This document shows positions 37,625 to 44,128 of a stretch of 50,102 bases of DNA, one piece after another. The notes beneath the pieces were generated by a model that saw only the letters and a program-made list of their open reading frames with translations, was not told the origin of the DNA and made no database searches. A program made the position numbers and the translations under genes. Origin of the DNA: an uncultured Acidobacteriota bacterium (GTDB taxonomy: Bacteria > Acidobacteriota > Vicinamibacteria > Vicinamibacterales > UBA2999); the NCBI GenBank assembly GCA_902826515.1, contig CADEFD010000010.1, forward strand, positions 1 through 50,102, in the 5' to 3' direction. Every line of letters begins with the position of its first letter. The first letter of the stretch is position 1.

Positions 37625-38580
37625 CAGGCAGCGTGCGGCGCGCGGACGGCGTCGGCCGAGGGGGCCGGCCACTTCCACGCCACGAGCGCGAGCGCGGTGA
37701 GCGCGCCGAGCAGCAGGCTCGACACGGTCAGGTGCGTCACCTGCGCGGGCGGCGGCAGCGCGAAGCCCGCCAGCACCATGCCGGCGGCGATCTGCACGAC
37801 CACGGCGGCCAGCGCGGCGCTGGCCGTGTGGCGCAGCGGCGCATGCGGCCCGTGCCGCAGCCAGGCCCACATCCACAGGCCGACGACGGCGAGCGTCACC
37901 ACGGCCCCGAGCTCGCGATGCCAGGTGTCGATGGCGCCCACCGCCGCCAGCACCTCGGCGCGCGGCACACCCGGCAGCGCGTCGTCGATGGCGCCGCGCA
38001 CCTGCGTGCCGACGCCCACCTGCACGAGCAGCAGCGCCGTGACGGCCCACGCCGCCCAGCCGAAGCGGCGGAGCGAAGCGGACGGCGGCGCGGTGGCCGG
38101 ACGCGCGCCGACGAGCGATTCCACCGTGGCCCAGAGGAGGAGCTGCACGATGACGAGCGCCACGACCATGTGCGCGGTGACGATCCACGGCGCCAGTTCG
38201 TGCGCCACCACCCGTCCGCCGAGCCAGCCTTCGTAGCCGGTCAGGAGCAGCGCGGCCACCGTGGGCCAGAGCACGCGCGGCTCACGGCGGTGACGGCGCC
38301 AGGCAGAGACCGTGGTGGCGAAGATGGCGAAGCCCACGCTGACGCCGAGCAGCCGGTTGAGGTACTCGGTCCACATCAGCGTCGGGTTGAACTGCGACGC
38401 GTCGAACTCGGGCGGCAGCGCCGCCGCGGACATCGGCGGAATCCACGAACCGAAGCACCGCGGCCAGTCGGGGCAGCCGAGCCCCGCTCCCGAGGCCCGC
38501 ACGAGACCACCGACGGCGATGAGCAGATACGTCAGCGCCGTCGTCGTGATGGCGAGGCGCTGGAAGGGCGTGAGACGCAT
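37624..38580 (-). CDS. ctaA: Heme A synthase (COX15/CtaA)
   Basis: The product is 318 aa from ATG 38580 with eight transmembrane helices; it oxidises heme O to heme A for cytochrome oxidase. GGLVRASGAGLGCPDWPRC includes the paired Cys of the first loop. Heme-ligand His are visible in AHELAPWIVTAHMV, IDTWHRELG and THLTVS. The first ligand position reads EYLNRLLG, with Asn where many enzymes have His, a variant I recall from actinobacterial CtaA. No oxidase subunits are nearby; tcyP lies upstream and lysE downstream. Confidence 0.9.
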   Translation of the reverse strand: MRLTPFQRLAITTTALTYLLIAVGGLVRASGAGLGCPDWPRCFGSWIPPMSAAALPPEFDASQFNPTLMWTEYLNRLLGVSVGFAIFATTVSAWRRHRREPRVLWPTVAALLLTGYEGWLGGRVVAHELAPWIVTAHMVVALVIVQLLLWATVESLVGARPATAPPSASLRRFGWAAWAVTALLLVQVGVGTQVRGAIDDALPGVPRAEVLAAVGAIDTWHRELGAVVTLAVVGLWMWAWLRHGPHAPLRHTASAALAAVVVQIAAGMVLAGFALPPPAQVTHLTVSSLLLGALTALALVAWKWPAPSADAVRAPHAA

Positions 38581-38630
38581 GGCGCGACAACTCCACCGGC
38601 GATCGTACACCGCGCGGAAGTCTGGCCCCG

Positions 38631-38663
38631 CCCCGAATGGGGTCTGACCCCGCGCAACCGGGG
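38631..38663. repeat. Chained GGGG/CCCC palindromes
   Basis: Three overlapping inverted repeats share arms: CCCCGAATGGGG (38631-38642), GGGGTCTGACCCC (38639-38651) and CCCCGCGCAACCGGGG (38648-38663). They directly follow the tcyP stop on its coding strand. GGGGTCTG recurs in the two large palindromic elements at 8177 and 47747, suggesting a related repeat family; the hairpins may also end tcyP transcription. Confidence 0.65.
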
Positions 38664-38664
38664 T

Positions 38665-40101
38665 TTACGCGCGGGCGCCGGCGGGTTCGCCGGCGGGCGC
38701 CTGGTCCGTGTCGGCGTCGGCTTCGGTCGGCGGCGCGTCGTGCGCCTCAAAGACGGCAAAGTCGAGCTGGCCGAGCATCTTGCCGGTGATCGTGCCGGCC
38801 GTCATCGACCCGCTGACGTTCACCGCCGTGCGGCCCATGTCGATGAGCGGCTCGACCGAGATGAGCAGCCCGGCAAGGGCGACCGGCAGGTTGAGCGCCG
38901 AGAGCACGACGAGCGCCGCGAAGGTGGCGCCGCCGCCGACGCCGGCGATGCCCACCGAGCCGAGCGTGGCGACGCCGACCACCGACGCCATGAACGGAAG
39001 CGACGTCGGATCGACGCCGGCGCCCGGCGCGATCATCACCGCGAGCATCGCCGGGTAGAGGCCGGCGCAGGCGTTCTGCCCGATGGTGGCGCCGAAGCTC
39101 GCCGCGAAGTTGGCGATGGCCGGCGACACGCCGAGGCGGCTCACCTGCGTCTCGACGCTCAGGGGAATCGCCGCCGCGCTCGACCGCGACGTGAAGGCGA
39201 AGGTCAGCACCGGCAGCACCTTCTGGTAGAAGCGCACCGGGTTCAGGCCCGTGCCCGTGAGGATGGCGGCGTGCAGCAGCAGGATGATGCCGAGCCCGAG
39301 ATACGAGGCCACGACGAAGCCGCCGAGGTTGTAGATGTCGTTCACGTTCGACGTCGCCACGACGCGCGTCATCAGCGCCAGCACGCCGTACGGCGTCAGC
39401 CGCAGCACCATGCGCACGAGGCGCAGGACGAGCTGCTGCAGGGTGTCGATGCCCTGCTGCACGCGTTCGCCCACCTCGGGCTTGTCGCGCTTGAGCGCGA
39501 GCGCCGCGAAGCCGAGCATCGCCGCGAACACCACGACGCCCATGATCGACGTGGAGCGCGCCCCGGTCAGGTCCGCGAAGATGTTCGTGGGCACCATCGC
39601 CGTGAGCAGCGACGGCAGGTCGAGCTTGGCGGCATCGGCCACGCGGGTTTCCATGTAGGTGCCGCGTTCGAGTTCGCGGGCGCCCTGCACGAGCCCTTCG
39701 GCGCGCAGCCCGAAGAGGGTGGTGACGCCGATGCCGATGGCGGCGGACAGGGCCGTGGTGATGAGCAGCGTGCCGAGCACGCCGGCGCTGATCTTGCCGA
39801 GCGCCTTGGCGTCGTGCAGCTTCGTGACCGCCGAGAGGATCGAGACCAGCACGAGTGGCGTGACCACCATCTGCAGCAGCCGCACGTAGATCCCGCCGAC
39901 GACACCCACCCACGTCATCGTGCCGGTGATGGCGGCGCTGCCGAGCCCGTAGGCCGTCTGCGCCAGCGCGCCGAGCACCACGCCGAGCAGCACGGCCAGC
40001 AGCACGTTGCTCGAAATCGACGCCCCGCCCTTGCGCCGCTGGTAGAGATAGCCCAGCGTCAGCGCGAAGACGGCCATGTTGGCGAGAACGGGTAGGTTCA
40101 T
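38665..40101 (-). CDS. tcyP: L-cystine:cation symporter (TcyP-like, DAACS family)
   Basis: The 478-aa membrane protein is of the dicarboxylate/amino acid:cation symporter family. MNLPVLANMAVFALTLGYLYQRRK and the hairpin-loop sequence FTSRSSAAAIPLSVETQVSRLGV match the cystine-uptake branch (TcyP/YdjN) better than GltP, and NAACAG-like QNACAGLYPAML and the STITGK-like end (GTITGKMLGQ) are present. A Ser-rich HP1 and NxxGS core are seen. AGGAG precedes the start by 5 nt. Upstream lies a leader ORF with six Cys codons and an attenuator-like hairpin set, which independently supports a cysteine-related substrate. Confidence 0.85.
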   Translation of the reverse strand: MNLPVLANMAVFALTLGYLYQRRKGGASISSNVLLAVLLGVVLGALAQTAYGLGSAAITGTMTWVGVVGGIYVRLLQMVVTPLVLVSILSAVTKLHDAKALGKISAGVLGTLLITTALSAAIGIGVTTLFGLRAEGLVQGARELERGTYMETRVADAAKLDLPSLLTAMVPTNIFADLTGARSTSIMGVVVFAAMLGFAALALKRDKPEVGERVQQGIDTLQQLVLRLVRMVLRLTPYGVLALMTRVVATSNVNDIYNLGGFVVASYLGLGIILLLHAAILTGTGLNPVRFYQKVLPVLTFAFTSRSSAAAIPLSVETQVSRLGVSPAIANFAASFGATIGQNACAGLYPAMLAVMIAPGAGVDPTSLPFMASVVGVATLGSVGIAGVGGGATFAALVVLSALNLPVALAGLLISVEPLIDMGRTAVNVSGSMTAGTITGKMLGQLDFAVFEAHDAPPTEADADTDQAPAGEPAGARA

Positions 40102-40161
40102 ACGAACTCCTGAAGCGGTGCCGTCTGTTGGACGCGGGGGCCGCGCCGCTGTTTCATCCCC

Positions 40162-40197
40162 GAAAACACAACGGCCCTCCCGCGGGCGAGAGGGCCG
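40162..40197 (-). terminator. Intrinsic terminator/attenuator in the tcyP leader
   Basis: On the minus strand CGGCCCTC (40197-40190) pairs with GAGGGCCG (40179-40172) over 10 nt, followed by a T-rich run (TTGTGTTTTC). It lies about 60 nt before the tcyP start, in the leader. The 5' arm segment GGCCCTCT (40196-40189) is also the perfect complement of AGAGGGCC (40260-40253) inside the upstream leader ORF, so the two hairpins exclude each other. Confidence 0.85.
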
Positions 40198-40233
40198 GAC
40201 TGGCTGTGGTGCGCGGTCGCGGTCGAGCGGGAC

Positions 40234-40287
40234 TCACGGCGCACAGATGGCGGGCCCTCTGTCGCAGGTGCGGCAACAACAACACAC
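40234..40287 (-). CDS. Cysteine-rich leader peptide (17 aa) for tcyP
   Basis: A GTG-initiated ORF on the minus strand (40287 to the TGA at 40236-40234) encodes MCCCCRTCDRGPAICAP: Cys at positions 2-5, 8 and 15, six of seventeen residues, four consecutive. Codons used for the run are TGT TGT TGT TGC. It is too short for ordinary gene finding. No clear Shine-Dalgarno is present; a TTG 27 nt upstream is an alternative start. The codons immediately after the Cys cluster (AGA GGG CCC) form the antiterminator arm. The peptide itself is probably only a sensor for cysteinyl-tRNA through ribosome stalling. Confidence 0.75.
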   Translation of the reverse strand: MCCCCRTCDRGPAICAP

Positions 40288-40322
40288 GCGGGCGCGAAAG
40301 AACGTCGGGGCCAAGTGCGCGC

Positions 40323-40352
40323 AGTCTAATGCCGGGCGCTCACGGGCGTCAA
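40323..40352 (-). promoter_or_regulatory. Promoter of the tcyP leader transcript
   Basis: On the minus strand -35 TTGACG (40352-40347) and -10 TAGACT (40328-40323) are 18 bp apart. Transcription would begin near 40316, about 28 nt before the leader GTG at 40287 and about 215 nt before tcyP. Confidence 0.6.
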
Positions 40353-40403
40353 CGGGGCGTCCGACCCGGATCGGGCCGCAATCCTGCTGGTAGAGTGTGC
40401 GCG

Positions 40404-41966
40404 ATGAGCTGCGTCTGCCAGGGGGGCCACCCCGACCCGGCGCCCGGTCCGGCGCCCATCAGCCGCCGCGCGTGGCTGGCGGGCGGGGCCGGGGTCGCGG
40501 GACTGCTCGCGGCCGTCCGGCCCGCCCGGGCCGCCTCGTCCGCGCAACCGGCCCGCGCCGCCTCGGTGCCCGAACCGCCGCGGGCGCCGTTCGTCATCGA
40601 GGCCGGCTGGGCGCTCACGACAGACGCCGTGGACCGCGTCACCCTCATGCGCGACGCCTCGATCGTGGTCGAGCAGGGGGCCATCGCCGAGGTGCGGCAG
40701 GGCCGGGTGGCCGGCCGCCAGACCCGTATCGACGCGCGCCGGCTGCTCGTGCTGCCGGGCTTCATCAGCGGGCACACCCACGTCTCCGCGGGCACGCCCA
40801 CCCGCGGCATCATCGAAGGCGGACGGTCGTACGCGCGTCCGCTCGAGGTGGTCGAAGGGCTCGACGACGCCGGCCTCGACGCCCTCACGGCGCTCAATCT
40901 CGCGGAGCTCCTGCGCAGCGGCTGCACGACCACGCTCGACATGAGCCTGAGCCTCCGCCAGGCCGAGTCGTACGTGCGGGTGGCGACGCGCTGGGGCGTG
41001 CGCGGCTACCCGGCGCCGATGATTCCCGGCATCCCGCGGCTCTTTCCGATCTGGCAGCGGCGCGACGACGCCACGCTCACGGCGTCCGTGCCCGGCACGC
41101 TCGAGGAGATCGCCGCCGCGCGCCGCTTCGGGGTCACGAACGCCCGGGCCAACGACGGCCTGATCCGCGCGCAGATCGCGCCGCACGCCACCGACACGCA
41201 CACCCCCGAGACGATGCGCGCGCTGATCGACGCCGCGCGTGCCGTGGGCAACGGCCTCCACATCCATCTGGCGCAAGGCGCCCGGGAGACGGAGACCGTG
41301 ACGCGGCTCTGGGGCGTTTCCCCGGTGCGCTGGCTCGAGTCGCTCGGCGCCTACGATCTGCCGGTGTTCGGCGCGCACATGAGCGGCGTGGACTGGGCCG
41401 CGGATGGCCCCGTGCTCAAGCGGCACGGCGTGGTCTTCGCGCACTGCCCGTCGGCCGGGGGCGCCGGTGGCGAGTCGATGCCGTATCCCGAGGCCCTCGG
41501 CGCCGGTGTGGCGGTGAACATCGGCATCGATACGCACTCGAACGACTACGTCGAGAACCTGAAGCTGGCGGTGCTCTACGGACAGGCGCGCGAGGCGCTC
41601 CTGCGCCGCGTGAGTCCCGTGGCCCTCGAACGTCCCTCGATCTGGACGGCGGTGGCGGGCGCCACGCTCGTGCCGGCCATCGGCCTGCGCCGCCCGGACC
41701 TTGGACGGATTCGCGCCGGGGCCCGCGCCGACCTCACGATGATCGACGTCTCGGGGCTGCTCGTGGGCGCCGGCGCGCTGCCGCCCGAGCCCCTGCACCA
41801 CCTGCTCTATGCGAACGGCACGGCGGTGCGGCACGTGATGACCGACGGTCGGCTGCAGGTCTTCGACGGCCGCCTCGTGGCCGATGAGGCGGAGGTCCTC
41901 GACGCCGGCGGACGCGCCGTGCAGACGGTGTGGCAGCAGCTCGATCGTGAAGGATGGTTTCGATGA
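40404..41966 (+). CDS. Tat-exported deaminase-type amidohydrolase
   Basis: The product is 520 aa from ATG 40404. The N-terminus has a Tat signal (SRRAWLAGGAGVAGLLAAV). The metal-dependent hydrolase motifs of the ATZ/TRZ-cytosine deaminase group are complete: LPGFISGHTHVSAG, HIHLAQGARET, FAHCPSAGGAG and NIGIDTHSNDYVENLK, with a normal end (LGRIRAGARADLTMIDVSG). It probably hydrolyses or deaminates a small heterocycle outside the cytoplasm; the substrate is unknown. Its stop overlaps the start of the following oligopeptidase, suggesting co-translation. Divergent from the tcyP leader. Confidence 0.85.
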   Translation: MSCVCQGGHPDPAPGPAPISRRAWLAGGAGVAGLLAAVRPARAASSAQPARAASVPEPPRAPFVIEAGWALTTDAVDRVTLMRDASIVVEQGAIAEVRQGRVAGRQTRIDARRLLVLPGFISGHTHVSAGTPTRGIIEGGRSYARPLEVVEGLDDAGLDALTALNLAELLRSGCTTTLDMSLSLRQAESYVRVATRWGVRGYPAPMIPGIPRLFPIWQRRDDATLTASVPGTLEEIAAARRFGVTNARANDGLIRAQIAPHATDTHTPETMRALIDAARAVGNGLHIHLAQGARETETVTRLWGVSPVRWLESLGAYDLPVFGAHMSGVDWAADGPVLKRHGVVFAHCPSAGGAGGESMPYPEALGAGVAVNIGIDTHSNDYVENLKLAVLYGQAREALLRRVSPVALERPSIWTAVAGATLVPAIGLRRPDLGRIRAGARADLTMIDVSGLLVGAGALPPEPLHHLLYANGTAVRHVMTDGRLQVFDGRLVADEAEVLDAGGRAVQTVWQQLDREGWFR

Positions 41967-44128
41967 TGGCGCGTGTCTCCCCCTCCCTCTTGTGTGTCCT
42001 CTGCGGGATCGCCGCGCTCTCCGCGTGCGGGCGGCCTGCCCCGCCGCCGCCGATGGCGCCGGTCACGCGCGTCGAGACCGTGGTGGATACGATCCACGGC
42101 GAGGCCTTTCCCGATCCCTACCGGTGGCTCGAGGATCAGCGCGCACCGGACACGCGCGCCTGGCTCACCGCGCAGGAGGCGTACACCACCGTCACGCTGC
42201 CGCGCGACGACAGCCGCCTCGCCCTCGAGCAGCGACTGACGGCGCTCATGGACCGCGCCGAGATCGGCGCGCCGCGCCGCGGCGGCGACCACGAGTACTT
42301 CACCCTGCGCCGTGTGGGCGATCCGCTGGCCGCCATCTACCGACGCCCGGTGCCGGCCGCGCCGGCGAAGGGCACCGCGGCGCCGCGGTCGCCGATCGAT
42401 CCGGCCGCCACGTATGAGGTGGTCGTGGATCCGCGGCCGCTCAGCGCCGATCAGACCACGCGCGTCGAACTCGTGAGCGTCGATCGACAGGGCCGGTATC
42501 TCGTCTACGCCGTGCGCGACGGCGGGCAGGACGAGCACTCGCTGCACATTCGCGACCTCGCGTCGGGACGCGATCTCGCCGACTCCTTCCCCGCCGCGCT
42601 CTACAGCAGTCTCGTGCCGGCGGCTGCCGGTGACGGCTTCTATTACAGCGTCCGCTCGCGGCAGACCGGCGCGCGCGTCCGGAAGCACCGGTGGGACACG
42701 GGTACCGACACCGACGCGCTCGTGTTCGGCGACGGCTACGGCCCCACCGCATTCGTCTCGGTGCTGCAGAGCGACGACGGACGCTGGCTGGTGTTCACCG
42801 CGCAGCACGGCTGGGCCTCGACCGATGTGTTCGCCCTCGACACGCGCGCGCCGCGGGCGGCGCCGATCGAGATCGCCCGGGGACTGGATGCGCGCTTCTA
42901 TCCGCGCTTCGTGAACGGCGAGCTGTGGATGCGCACCGATTTCGAGGCGCCGCGCAACCGCGTGGTGGCCGTGTCACTCGCGCGGCCGGCGCGCACGGCC
43001 TGGCGTACGGTGGTGGCCGAGCAGCCCGAGGTGCTCGAAGACGTCACCGTCATTGACGGCGCCATCTACGCGCAGCTCCTGCACGAGGCGGCCAGCCGCC
43101 TCGTGCGCTTCGATCCGGATGGCACGCGCCGCGACGAACTGCCAGTGCCGCCCATGCACTCGGCATCGATTCGCGGCGACGGCCCCGGCCACGCGGTGCT
43201 GACGCTCGAGTCGTTCGCCGCGCCAGAGACGTCGTGGCGCACGGACCTCGCGACCGGCGCGCGCACCGTGGATCGTGCTGCCGAGATCCCGTACGACGGC
43301 ACGAACGTCGAGGTGCGCTACGGCGCCGCGGCGTCGAAGGACGGCACGCGGGTGCCGGTCTGGGTCGTGCACAAGAAGGGTCTGACGCGCACCGGCAGCA
43401 CACCGACGCTGCTCTTCGGCTACGGCGGCTTCTACGCCGCGCAGAAGCCGTCGTTCTCGCCGCTCGCGGCGGCGTGGGTCGAGGCCGGCGGCGTCTACGC
43501 GATGGCGGTCCTGCGCGGCGGCAGCGAGTTCGGCGAAACCTGGCACCGCGCCGGCATGCTCACGAACAAACCGCGGGTCTTCGAGGACTTCATCGCCGCC
43601 GGCGAGTGGCTGGTGGCAGAGCGCTACACGAGTCCGCGGACACTGGGCATCATGGGCACGAGCAACGGCGGCCTGCTCGTCGGCGCCGCGCTCACCATGC
43701 GGCCCGACCTCTTCCGCGCCGTGCTCTGCGGGTTCCCGGACGTCGACATCCTGCGCTTCAACCACTACACGACGAACAACAACATGCCGGCGCTGCTCGA
43801 GTACGGCGATGCGGCCATCAAGGCGCAGTTCGACGTGATTCGCACCTACTCGCCGTATCAGGCGGTGCGGGCCGGCACGCCGTATCCGGCCGTGCTCGTC
43901 GCAACCGGCGACCTCGACACGCGCGTGCCGCCGCTTGCCGGCCGCAAGTTCGCCGCGCGTCTCCAGGCCGCGACCACGTCGGGACATCCGGTGCTGCTGC
44001 GGTACCACGCGAAGGGCGGGCACGCGGCCAACTACGGCATGCCCTTCCCGCTGCGCGTGCAGCAGACGGCGATGGACCTGCACTTCATGATGCGCGAGCT
44101 GGGCCTGCCGCTGCCGCCCGCGCGCTGA
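41963..44128 (+). CDS. Prolyl oligopeptidase (S9A) lipoprotein
   Basis: The product is 721 aa from ATG 41963, which has AAGGA about 8 nt upstream; alternatives at 41954 and 41966 are in frame. The signal ends in the lipobox LSAC, so it is membrane-anchored. Residues about 35-430 form the S9A propeller, starting with GEAFPDPYRWLEDQRAPDTRAWL, the usual N-terminal signature. The hydrolase domain has Ser in GIMGTSNGGLL (S567), Asp in GDLDTRVPPLAG and His in KGGHAANYG. It cleaves after proline in short peptides. Paired with an upstream amidohydrolase by overlapping stop and start. Confidence 0.93.
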   Translation: MMARVSPSLLCVLCGIAALSACGRPAPPPPMAPVTRVETVVDTIHGEAFPDPYRWLEDQRAPDTRAWLTAQEAYTTVTLPRDDSRLALEQRLTALMDRAEIGAPRRGGDHEYFTLRRVGDPLAAIYRRPVPAAPAKGTAAPRSPIDPAATYEVVVDPRPLSADQTTRVELVSVDRQGRYLVYAVRDGGQDEHSLHIRDLASGRDLADSFPAALYSSLVPAAAGDGFYYSVRSRQTGARVRKHRWDTGTDTDALVFGDGYGPTAFVSVLQSDDGRWLVFTAQHGWASTDVFALDTRAPRAAPIEIARGLDARFYPRFVNGELWMRTDFEAPRNRVVAVSLARPARTAWRTVVAEQPEVLEDVTVIDGAIYAQLLHEAASRLVRFDPDGTRRDELPVPPMHSASIRGDGPGHAVLTLESFAAPETSWRTDLATGARTVDRAAEIPYDGTNVEVRYGAAASKDGTRVPVWVVHKKGLTRTGSTPTLLFGYGGFYAAQKPSFSPLAAAWVEAGGVYAMAVLRGGSEFGETWHRAGMLTNKPRVFEDFIAAGEWLVAERYTSPRTLGIMGTSNGGLLVGAALTMRPDLFRAVLCGFPDVDILRFNHYTTNNNMPALLEYGDAAIKAQFDVIRTYSPYQAVRAGTPYPAVLVATGDLDTRVPPLAGRKFAARLQAATTSGHPVLLRYHAKGGHAANYGMPFPLRVQQTAMDLHFMMRELGLPLPPAR

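Follow-up and report, generated by a model that had tools for sequence, protein, structure and literature searches.

The window analysed here, a stretch of 50,102 nt from an uncultured Acidobacteriota bacterium of the order Vicinamibacterales (contig CADEFD010000010.1), carries on its minus strand a gene for a cystine transporter, tcyP, and upstream of it a promoter, a short reading frame with a run of cysteine codons, and an intrinsic terminator. The features are:

38665..40101, minus strand: tcyP, encoding a DAACS (SDF) family cystine/cation symporter of 478 aa, with a GGAG ribosome-binding site at 40110-40107
40162..40197, minus strand: intrinsic terminator, an 11-bp stem with a 4-nt loop (40197-40172) and the T-rich tail TTGTGTTTTC
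40189..40196, minus strand: segment 3, GGCCCTCT, common to the predicted antiterminator and the terminator
40234..40287, minus strand: leader ORF as given in the first-pass annotation, GTG, then Cys-Cys-Cys-Cys-Arg-Thr-Cys-Asp-Arg-Gly-Pro-Ala-Ile-Cys-Ala-Pro, then TGA
40234..40314, minus strand: longer form of the leader ORF, from TTG 40314, LAPTFFRARVCCCCRTCDRGPAICAP, to the stop TGA 40236-40234
40253..40260, minus strand: segment 2, AGAGGGCC, the 5' half of the predicted antiterminator, which complements the 5' arm of the terminator
40273..40284, minus strand: putative regulatory Cys-codon run, TGT TGT TGT TGC
40323..40352, minus strand: promoter, with -35 TTGACG (40352-40347), an 18-nt spacer and -10 TAGACT (40328-40323)

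The product of tcyP matches Pfam PF00375 (E 9e-96) and shares 57.6% identity, over 94% of its length, with the product of the E. coli gene annotated tcyP, a cystine/sulfocysteine:cation symporter, and both matches uphold the earlier description of a TcyP-like symporter downstream of the leader. Judged by this homology, the target of the leader is a TcyP cystine importer, and the amino acid that would be sensed fits the target, since TcyP imports cystine, a source of cysteine. Orthologues of tcyP occur in 11 of 193 genomes of the class, all in one family, and none was found outside that family in an even sample of the phylum. No leader of this kind was noticed before the tcyP relatives of other phyla, most of them from Gammaproteobacteria; a short frame with CCC does occur at two Pseudomonas loci. 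The interval from tcyP to the ctaA/COX15 gene downstream of it (38610-38664) contains a short GC-rich sequence that includes the palindrome GGGGTCAGACCCC; at the related locus L002, tcyP is followed by a similar stretch, GGGGTCTGACCCC.

Upstream of tcyP, the promoter, the intrinsic terminator and the 8-nt complementarity between the reading frame and the 5' arm of the terminator were all found as the first-pass annotation had described them. The promoter-like minus-strand sequence TTGACG-18-TAGACT is the only sigma-70-like site found in 4 kb, with 0.1 expected in shuffled sequence, and it predicts a transcription start at about 40316. The terminator (40197-40162) lies at the stated coordinates and its hairpin has an energy of -22.7 kcal/mol (z = -3.5 relative to dinucleotide-shuffled sequence), and AGAGGGCC is, to the base, the exact 8-nt complement of GGCCCTCT.

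The 17-codon frame from GTG 40287 to TGA 40234, with its cysteine codons, is likewise present and would encode M-CCCC-RTCDRGPAICAP. The proposed start at GTG 40287 is, however, unlikely to be universal. Among the six leaders described below, a GTG or ATG stands at this place in L001 (the window's own) and L002 only, the ATG of L002 replacing the GTG, and L004 has neither there. A TTG at the position of 40314 is common to L001, L002 and L004, and in L004 it is the sole usable ATG, GTG or TTG start 3' of the promoter; in the window it lies at, or no more than about 3 nt from, the predicted transcription start. Counted from predicted, unmapped transcription starts, the 5' UTR would be 2 nt long in L004 (from the TTG), 7 and 10 nt in L003 and L006 (each from an ATG), 2 or 29 nt in L001 and L002, and 42 nt in L005. 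No clear Shine-Dalgarno site precedes any of the six leader ORFs, whereas tcyP has its GGAG. With starts so near the predicted 5' end, and no clear Shine-Dalgarno site, leaderless or near-leaderless initiation, as in the poly-Cys sORFs of mycobacteria, is plausible. The variation in start codon and in mode of starting was counted against the attenuator reading developed below.

Cysteine codons 2-5, 8 and 15 had all been assigned to the sensor. The run at 2-5 is kept in the relatives, but L003, L005 and L006 have not retained the codons at 8 and 15, and a ribosome stalled at either of these would cover segment 2 and so favour termination. Including them in the sensor was therefore probably wrong, and it is probably the run alone that is useful to the switch.

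The region upstream of tcyP could be read in 10 of the 11 genomes, and the leader is present at six loci, L001 to L004 in one genus (g1) and L005 and L006 in a second genus (g11), where TcyP is 75-78% identical to the protein of the window. The six leader peptides read (L)APTFFRARVCCCCRTCDRGPAICAP, (L)APSLLRVRMCCCCRSCDRGPAMRVP, MRAAPCECCCCRTSPRGSGRRTP, LAPNLCRAGRFRCCCRTCGRGPAACAS, MTCRLHVLGCCCCGGFLSRKPGASTP and MSNQLHLSGCCCRGGFLPRKPGVWTP. The expectation that the Cys codons would be kept in relatives is borne out for the run, where 22 of the 24 codons specify Cys over the six leaders; TGT and TGC are exchanged at the first and fourth codons. Of these 22, 15 are TGT, against 16% TGT among the Cys codons of the window's genes, and this preference for the rare codon fits a cysteine sensor. 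The position of the TGA stop is kept in all six, the distance from this stop to the terminator arm is 37 nt in g1 and 40 nt in g11, and every leader retains the terminator stem and a T-containing tail (6/6). Outside the Cys run, stop, spacing and terminator the leaders have diverged. The sequence TTGACG...TAGACT stands before tcyP in L001-L004 and also in L011, with variants in L005-L008. The neighbouring gene is a divergent amidohydrolase in L001 and L002 and a co-directional amidohydrolase in L003 and L004, and other genes take its place in L005 and L006; these three gene contexts indicate that the leader goes with tcyP.

Covarying hairpins had also been expected in relatives. The terminator stem contains no compensatory changes, as its arms are nearly invariant, and the structural support is instead the altered antiterminator pairing that folding predicts for the second genus.

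A covariance model of the six leaders recovered exactly those six in the 193 genomes of the class, one per genome, at E <= 6e-22, the next-best match having an E of 0.02. A laxer model search of 40 genomes of the family gave one stronger extra match (0.002), which is an ordinary gene-end terminator. Other weak matches proved on inspection to be ordinary terminators or coding DNA, except for L190, to which we return below. The tcyP orthologues at L007, L008 and L010 have no leader. At L011 the tcyP promoter is followed directly by a similar GGCCC-type terminator, some 120 to 50 nt before the gene, with no leader ORF between them; this may be the remnant of an attenuator, or an attenuator that uses a different sensor. 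At L007, repeated units of the AGGTCTTAGG/GTCCTAGG type replace the leader between promoter and gene, about 170-80 nt upstream of tcyP.

To follow how the fold depends on the position of the ribosome, we set a model ribosome on each codon in turn and folded the RNA in front of it, stopping before the 3' arm of the terminator. The footprint was taken as 12 nt behind and 15 nt ahead of the first P-site base, an approximate value, and folding was modelled at equilibrium rather than co-transcriptionally. When the A site holds Cys 5, the front edge of the ribosome reaches about 40263, immediately 5' of segment 2. With the A site on the last codon of the run, segment 3 is sequestered in the model with probabilities of 0.99, 0.99, 0.87 and 0.99 in L001 to L004 and of 0.74 and 0.61 in L005 and L006; in L001 the pairing of segment 2 with segment 3 itself has a probability of 0.99. 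Two codons past the run, sequestration in g1 falls to about 0.4-0.5, and thereafter it lies mostly between 0.05 and 0.6. The mean drop over the six leaders is 0.53, a value that none of 300 joint shuffles of the region between the Cys run and the terminator reaches (maximum 0.27). Taken singly, the fraction of shuffles reaching the drop is 0.010, 0.000, 0.017, 0.000, 0.040 and 0.207 in L001 to L006, so that the effect is marginal in L005 and not significant by itself in L006.

In g1 the predicted antiterminator is the pairing AGAGGGCC/GGCCCTCT, which is bulged in L003 (GAGGG-T-CCGG), and in g11 a different pairing, GCCGGGAG/CTTTCCGGC, would do the same job. The antiterminator pairing would thus have been rebuilt between the two genera while the Cys run and the terminator stayed. 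When RNA up to the terminator is folded with no ribosome on it, the antiterminator is favoured at equilibrium in L001-L003. A protector hairpin of the 1:2 type, which would let transcription terminate when no translation takes place, has a probability of 0.60-0.92 in L002-L006 and of 0.04 in L001. The ribosome-free fold and the low value in L001 weigh against the attenuator reading, as do the single-leader results for L005 and L006, the lack of compensatory changes in the terminator stem and the tcyP orthologues that have no leader.

We consider it very likely, from the arrangement of these elements and the modelled folds, that the leader is a Cys-specific ribosome-mediated transcription attenuator of the trp/his/leu type controlling tcyP. 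RNA polymerase would start at about 40316, and a ribosome would start translating the leader ORF at the 5' end of the transcript or very close to it. When charged tRNA-Cys is ample, the ribosome would pass the CCCC run and cover segment 2 (AGAGGGCC), leaving segment 3 to pair with its 3' arm, so that the terminator would form and transcription would stop before tcyP. When charged tRNA-Cys is scarce, the ribosome would halt on the Cys run with its leading edge just before segment 2, which would then pair with segment 3 and pre-empt the terminator; tcyP would be transcribed and cystine imported. This logic, in which stalling gives the antiterminator and fast translation the terminator, had been put forward in the first-pass annotation. 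The footprint folding agrees with it in the four g1 leaders and more weakly in the two of g11, and the parts that are conserved are the parts that it needs. Among the features that define attenuators of this class, a leader ORF with Cys codons, a cysteine-related gene and an intrinsic terminator between the two are all in place, and the mutually exclusive antiterminator is found by computation, clearly in g1 and less so in g11. We infer that the leader is translated, that transcription does end at the terminator and that expression of tcyP answers to cysteine.

Serine O-acetyltransferase (CysE) was found above the curated cut-off in none of 43 genomes of the window's family, and CysK-like genes are present. 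Cysteine auxotrophy of the family as the reason for the switch is not claimed here, given the CysK-like genes and the fact that another acyltransferase could replace CysE.

Other explanations of the locus have to be set beside this one. The Cys run is by itself a striking feature of a short frame, since Cys makes up 0.64% of the codons in the 31 genes predicted in the window, where TGT is the rarer Cys codon (16%). The genome nevertheless contains 68 runs of four in-register TGY codons, and a reversed control pattern is equally frequent, so the run alone proves little and could in principle be a chance ORF before a plain terminator with no regulatory role. Six of the 68 runs lie in a short frame with a terminator-like hairpin no more than 150 nt from its stop, and the leader of the window has the longest and most GC-rich stem among these six; in this genome-wide survey no second comparable attenuator was seen. 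We regard chance as the least probable of the explanations weighed here. The terminator sits between a promoter and tcyP rather than behind another gene, the neighbour in the window being divergent; the arrangement is kept over two genera and three gene contexts, and the effect of ribosome position exceeds that in shuffles. It is the conservation in five relatives, read from their sequences, that we take as the decisive evidence.

Only slightly more credible is a protein- or small-molecule-binding RNA, such as a T-box or a riboswitch, with the Cys frame incidental. A terminator with an alternative fold would suit any sensor, and folding reveals the fold and not the ligand. Against this, no Rfam family matches the region 38000-42000 up to an E of 5, no conserved aptamer-like structure is apparent, and the in-frame run of so rare an amino acid is the best-conserved element upstream of the gene. 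It is also improbable, if somewhat less so, that the hairpin has only a minor role and that the leader-peptide system works chiefly by way of Rho or by controlling how accessible the ribosome-binding site of tcyP is. Such modes have been proposed elsewhere: Rho was suggested for Cys leaders of Actinobacteria that have no terminators (Seliverstov 2005, PMC1262725), and cysteine genes of mycobacteria have been described as under translation attenuation (PMC13236596). At tcyP, however, a strong T-tailed intrinsic terminator is present in all six leaders (6/6) at a fixed distance from the leader stop, and the alignment contains no conserved element between terminator and gene that could cover the ribosome-binding site.

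The proposed transcription attenuation of tcyP by its leader resembles several systems already described. The nearest is the uORFC-8-2 motif, a predicted Cys transcription attenuator with an intrinsic terminator upstream of cysS in Rhodobacterales (PMC8632094). Both have a short ORF in which Cys codons stand in tandem, followed by an intrinsic terminator, and both are predicted to respond when charged tRNA-Cys is low. Features of uORFC-8-2 alone are a cysteinyl-tRNA synthetase target, a place in the Alphaproteobacteria, an AUG start, and two Cys codons, at about positions 14-15, that lie within the first stem, whereas the tcyP leader has a run of 3-4 Cys codons before the antiterminator, no conserved first stem holding that run, a cystine importer as its target, and an acidobacterial host. 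The tcyP leader would work like uORFC-8-2 but is not a member of it. The Cys leaders of Actinobacteria stand before cys/cbs genes, with Cys codons near the stop and no conserved terminators (Seliverstov 2005, PMC1262725), and the tcyP leader differs from them in its strong terminator and its gene. Poly-Cys leaderless sORFs are known from mycobacteria (Canestrari et al. 2020, Mol. Microbiol. 114:93-108, as cited in PMC13236596). They and the actinobacterial leaders have in common with the tcyP leader a poly-Cys short ORF before cysteine-related genes; a start close to the 5' terminus of the RNA and a response to cysteine would be further likenesses. The mycobacterial ones are described as a case of translation attenuation (PMC13236596). 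With the trp, his, leu and ilv attenuators of Proteobacteria the likeness lies in leader codons for the sensed amino acid and in mutually exclusive antiterminator and terminator, and the differences are cysteine as the amino acid, an importer in place of a biosynthetic operon, and the lack of a clear Shine-Dalgarno site.

The claim of novelty made in the first-pass annotation stands in part. Our search of open-licence papers found no report of an attenuator for a cystine importer or for Acidobacteriota, and a survey of 2010 left the attenuators of Acidobacteria almost without assigned functions (PMC2965389), but a Cys transcription attenuator had already been predicted for cysS (PMC8632094). 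What is new is thus the target gene and the phylum, ribosome-mediated Cys attenuation itself being already known or predicted. The Acidobacteriota gain a concrete and testable case, in which candidates for sensor, switch and target are all identified and in which cysteine attenuation would act on uptake and not on synthesis or tRNA charging. To our knowledge, amino-acid attenuators have hardly been assigned outside the Proteobacteria, Actinobacteria and Firmicutes.

The one weak covariance-model match that did not turn out to be an ordinary terminator or coding DNA comes from G180, a genome of another family in the same order:

L190 (G180:C201), about 29.7-29.9 kb, also L235 and L261, minus strand: poly-Cys leader of G180

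At this locus TTGACG-17-TATATT stands ahead of VIPVGLENDPAFAGGARCALACCCCRHRGHGARAV, an ORF with ...ACCCCR... whose GTG coincides with the predicted start of the transcript; a strong 12-bp terminator with TTTTT comes next, and then a gene of PF04143 (YeeE/YedE sulphur transport). An antiterminator is not clear in the footprint folding of this leader, and the NCBIfam scores of the transporter for the selenium and thiosulfate types are below their cut-offs. The other full-length yeeE genes examined in the class have no such leader, which was found in G180 only. The locus offers a hint that poly-Cys leaders came to stand before sulfur importers on more than one occasion. Together with the tcyP leaders in two genera of one family, this YeeE/YedE leader in another family makes it possible, although we propose it only tentatively, that the order uses poly-Cys leaders as a general transcription-attenuation switch for importers of sulfur compounds, several of these leaders having their predicted start at the 5' end of the transcript or close to it.
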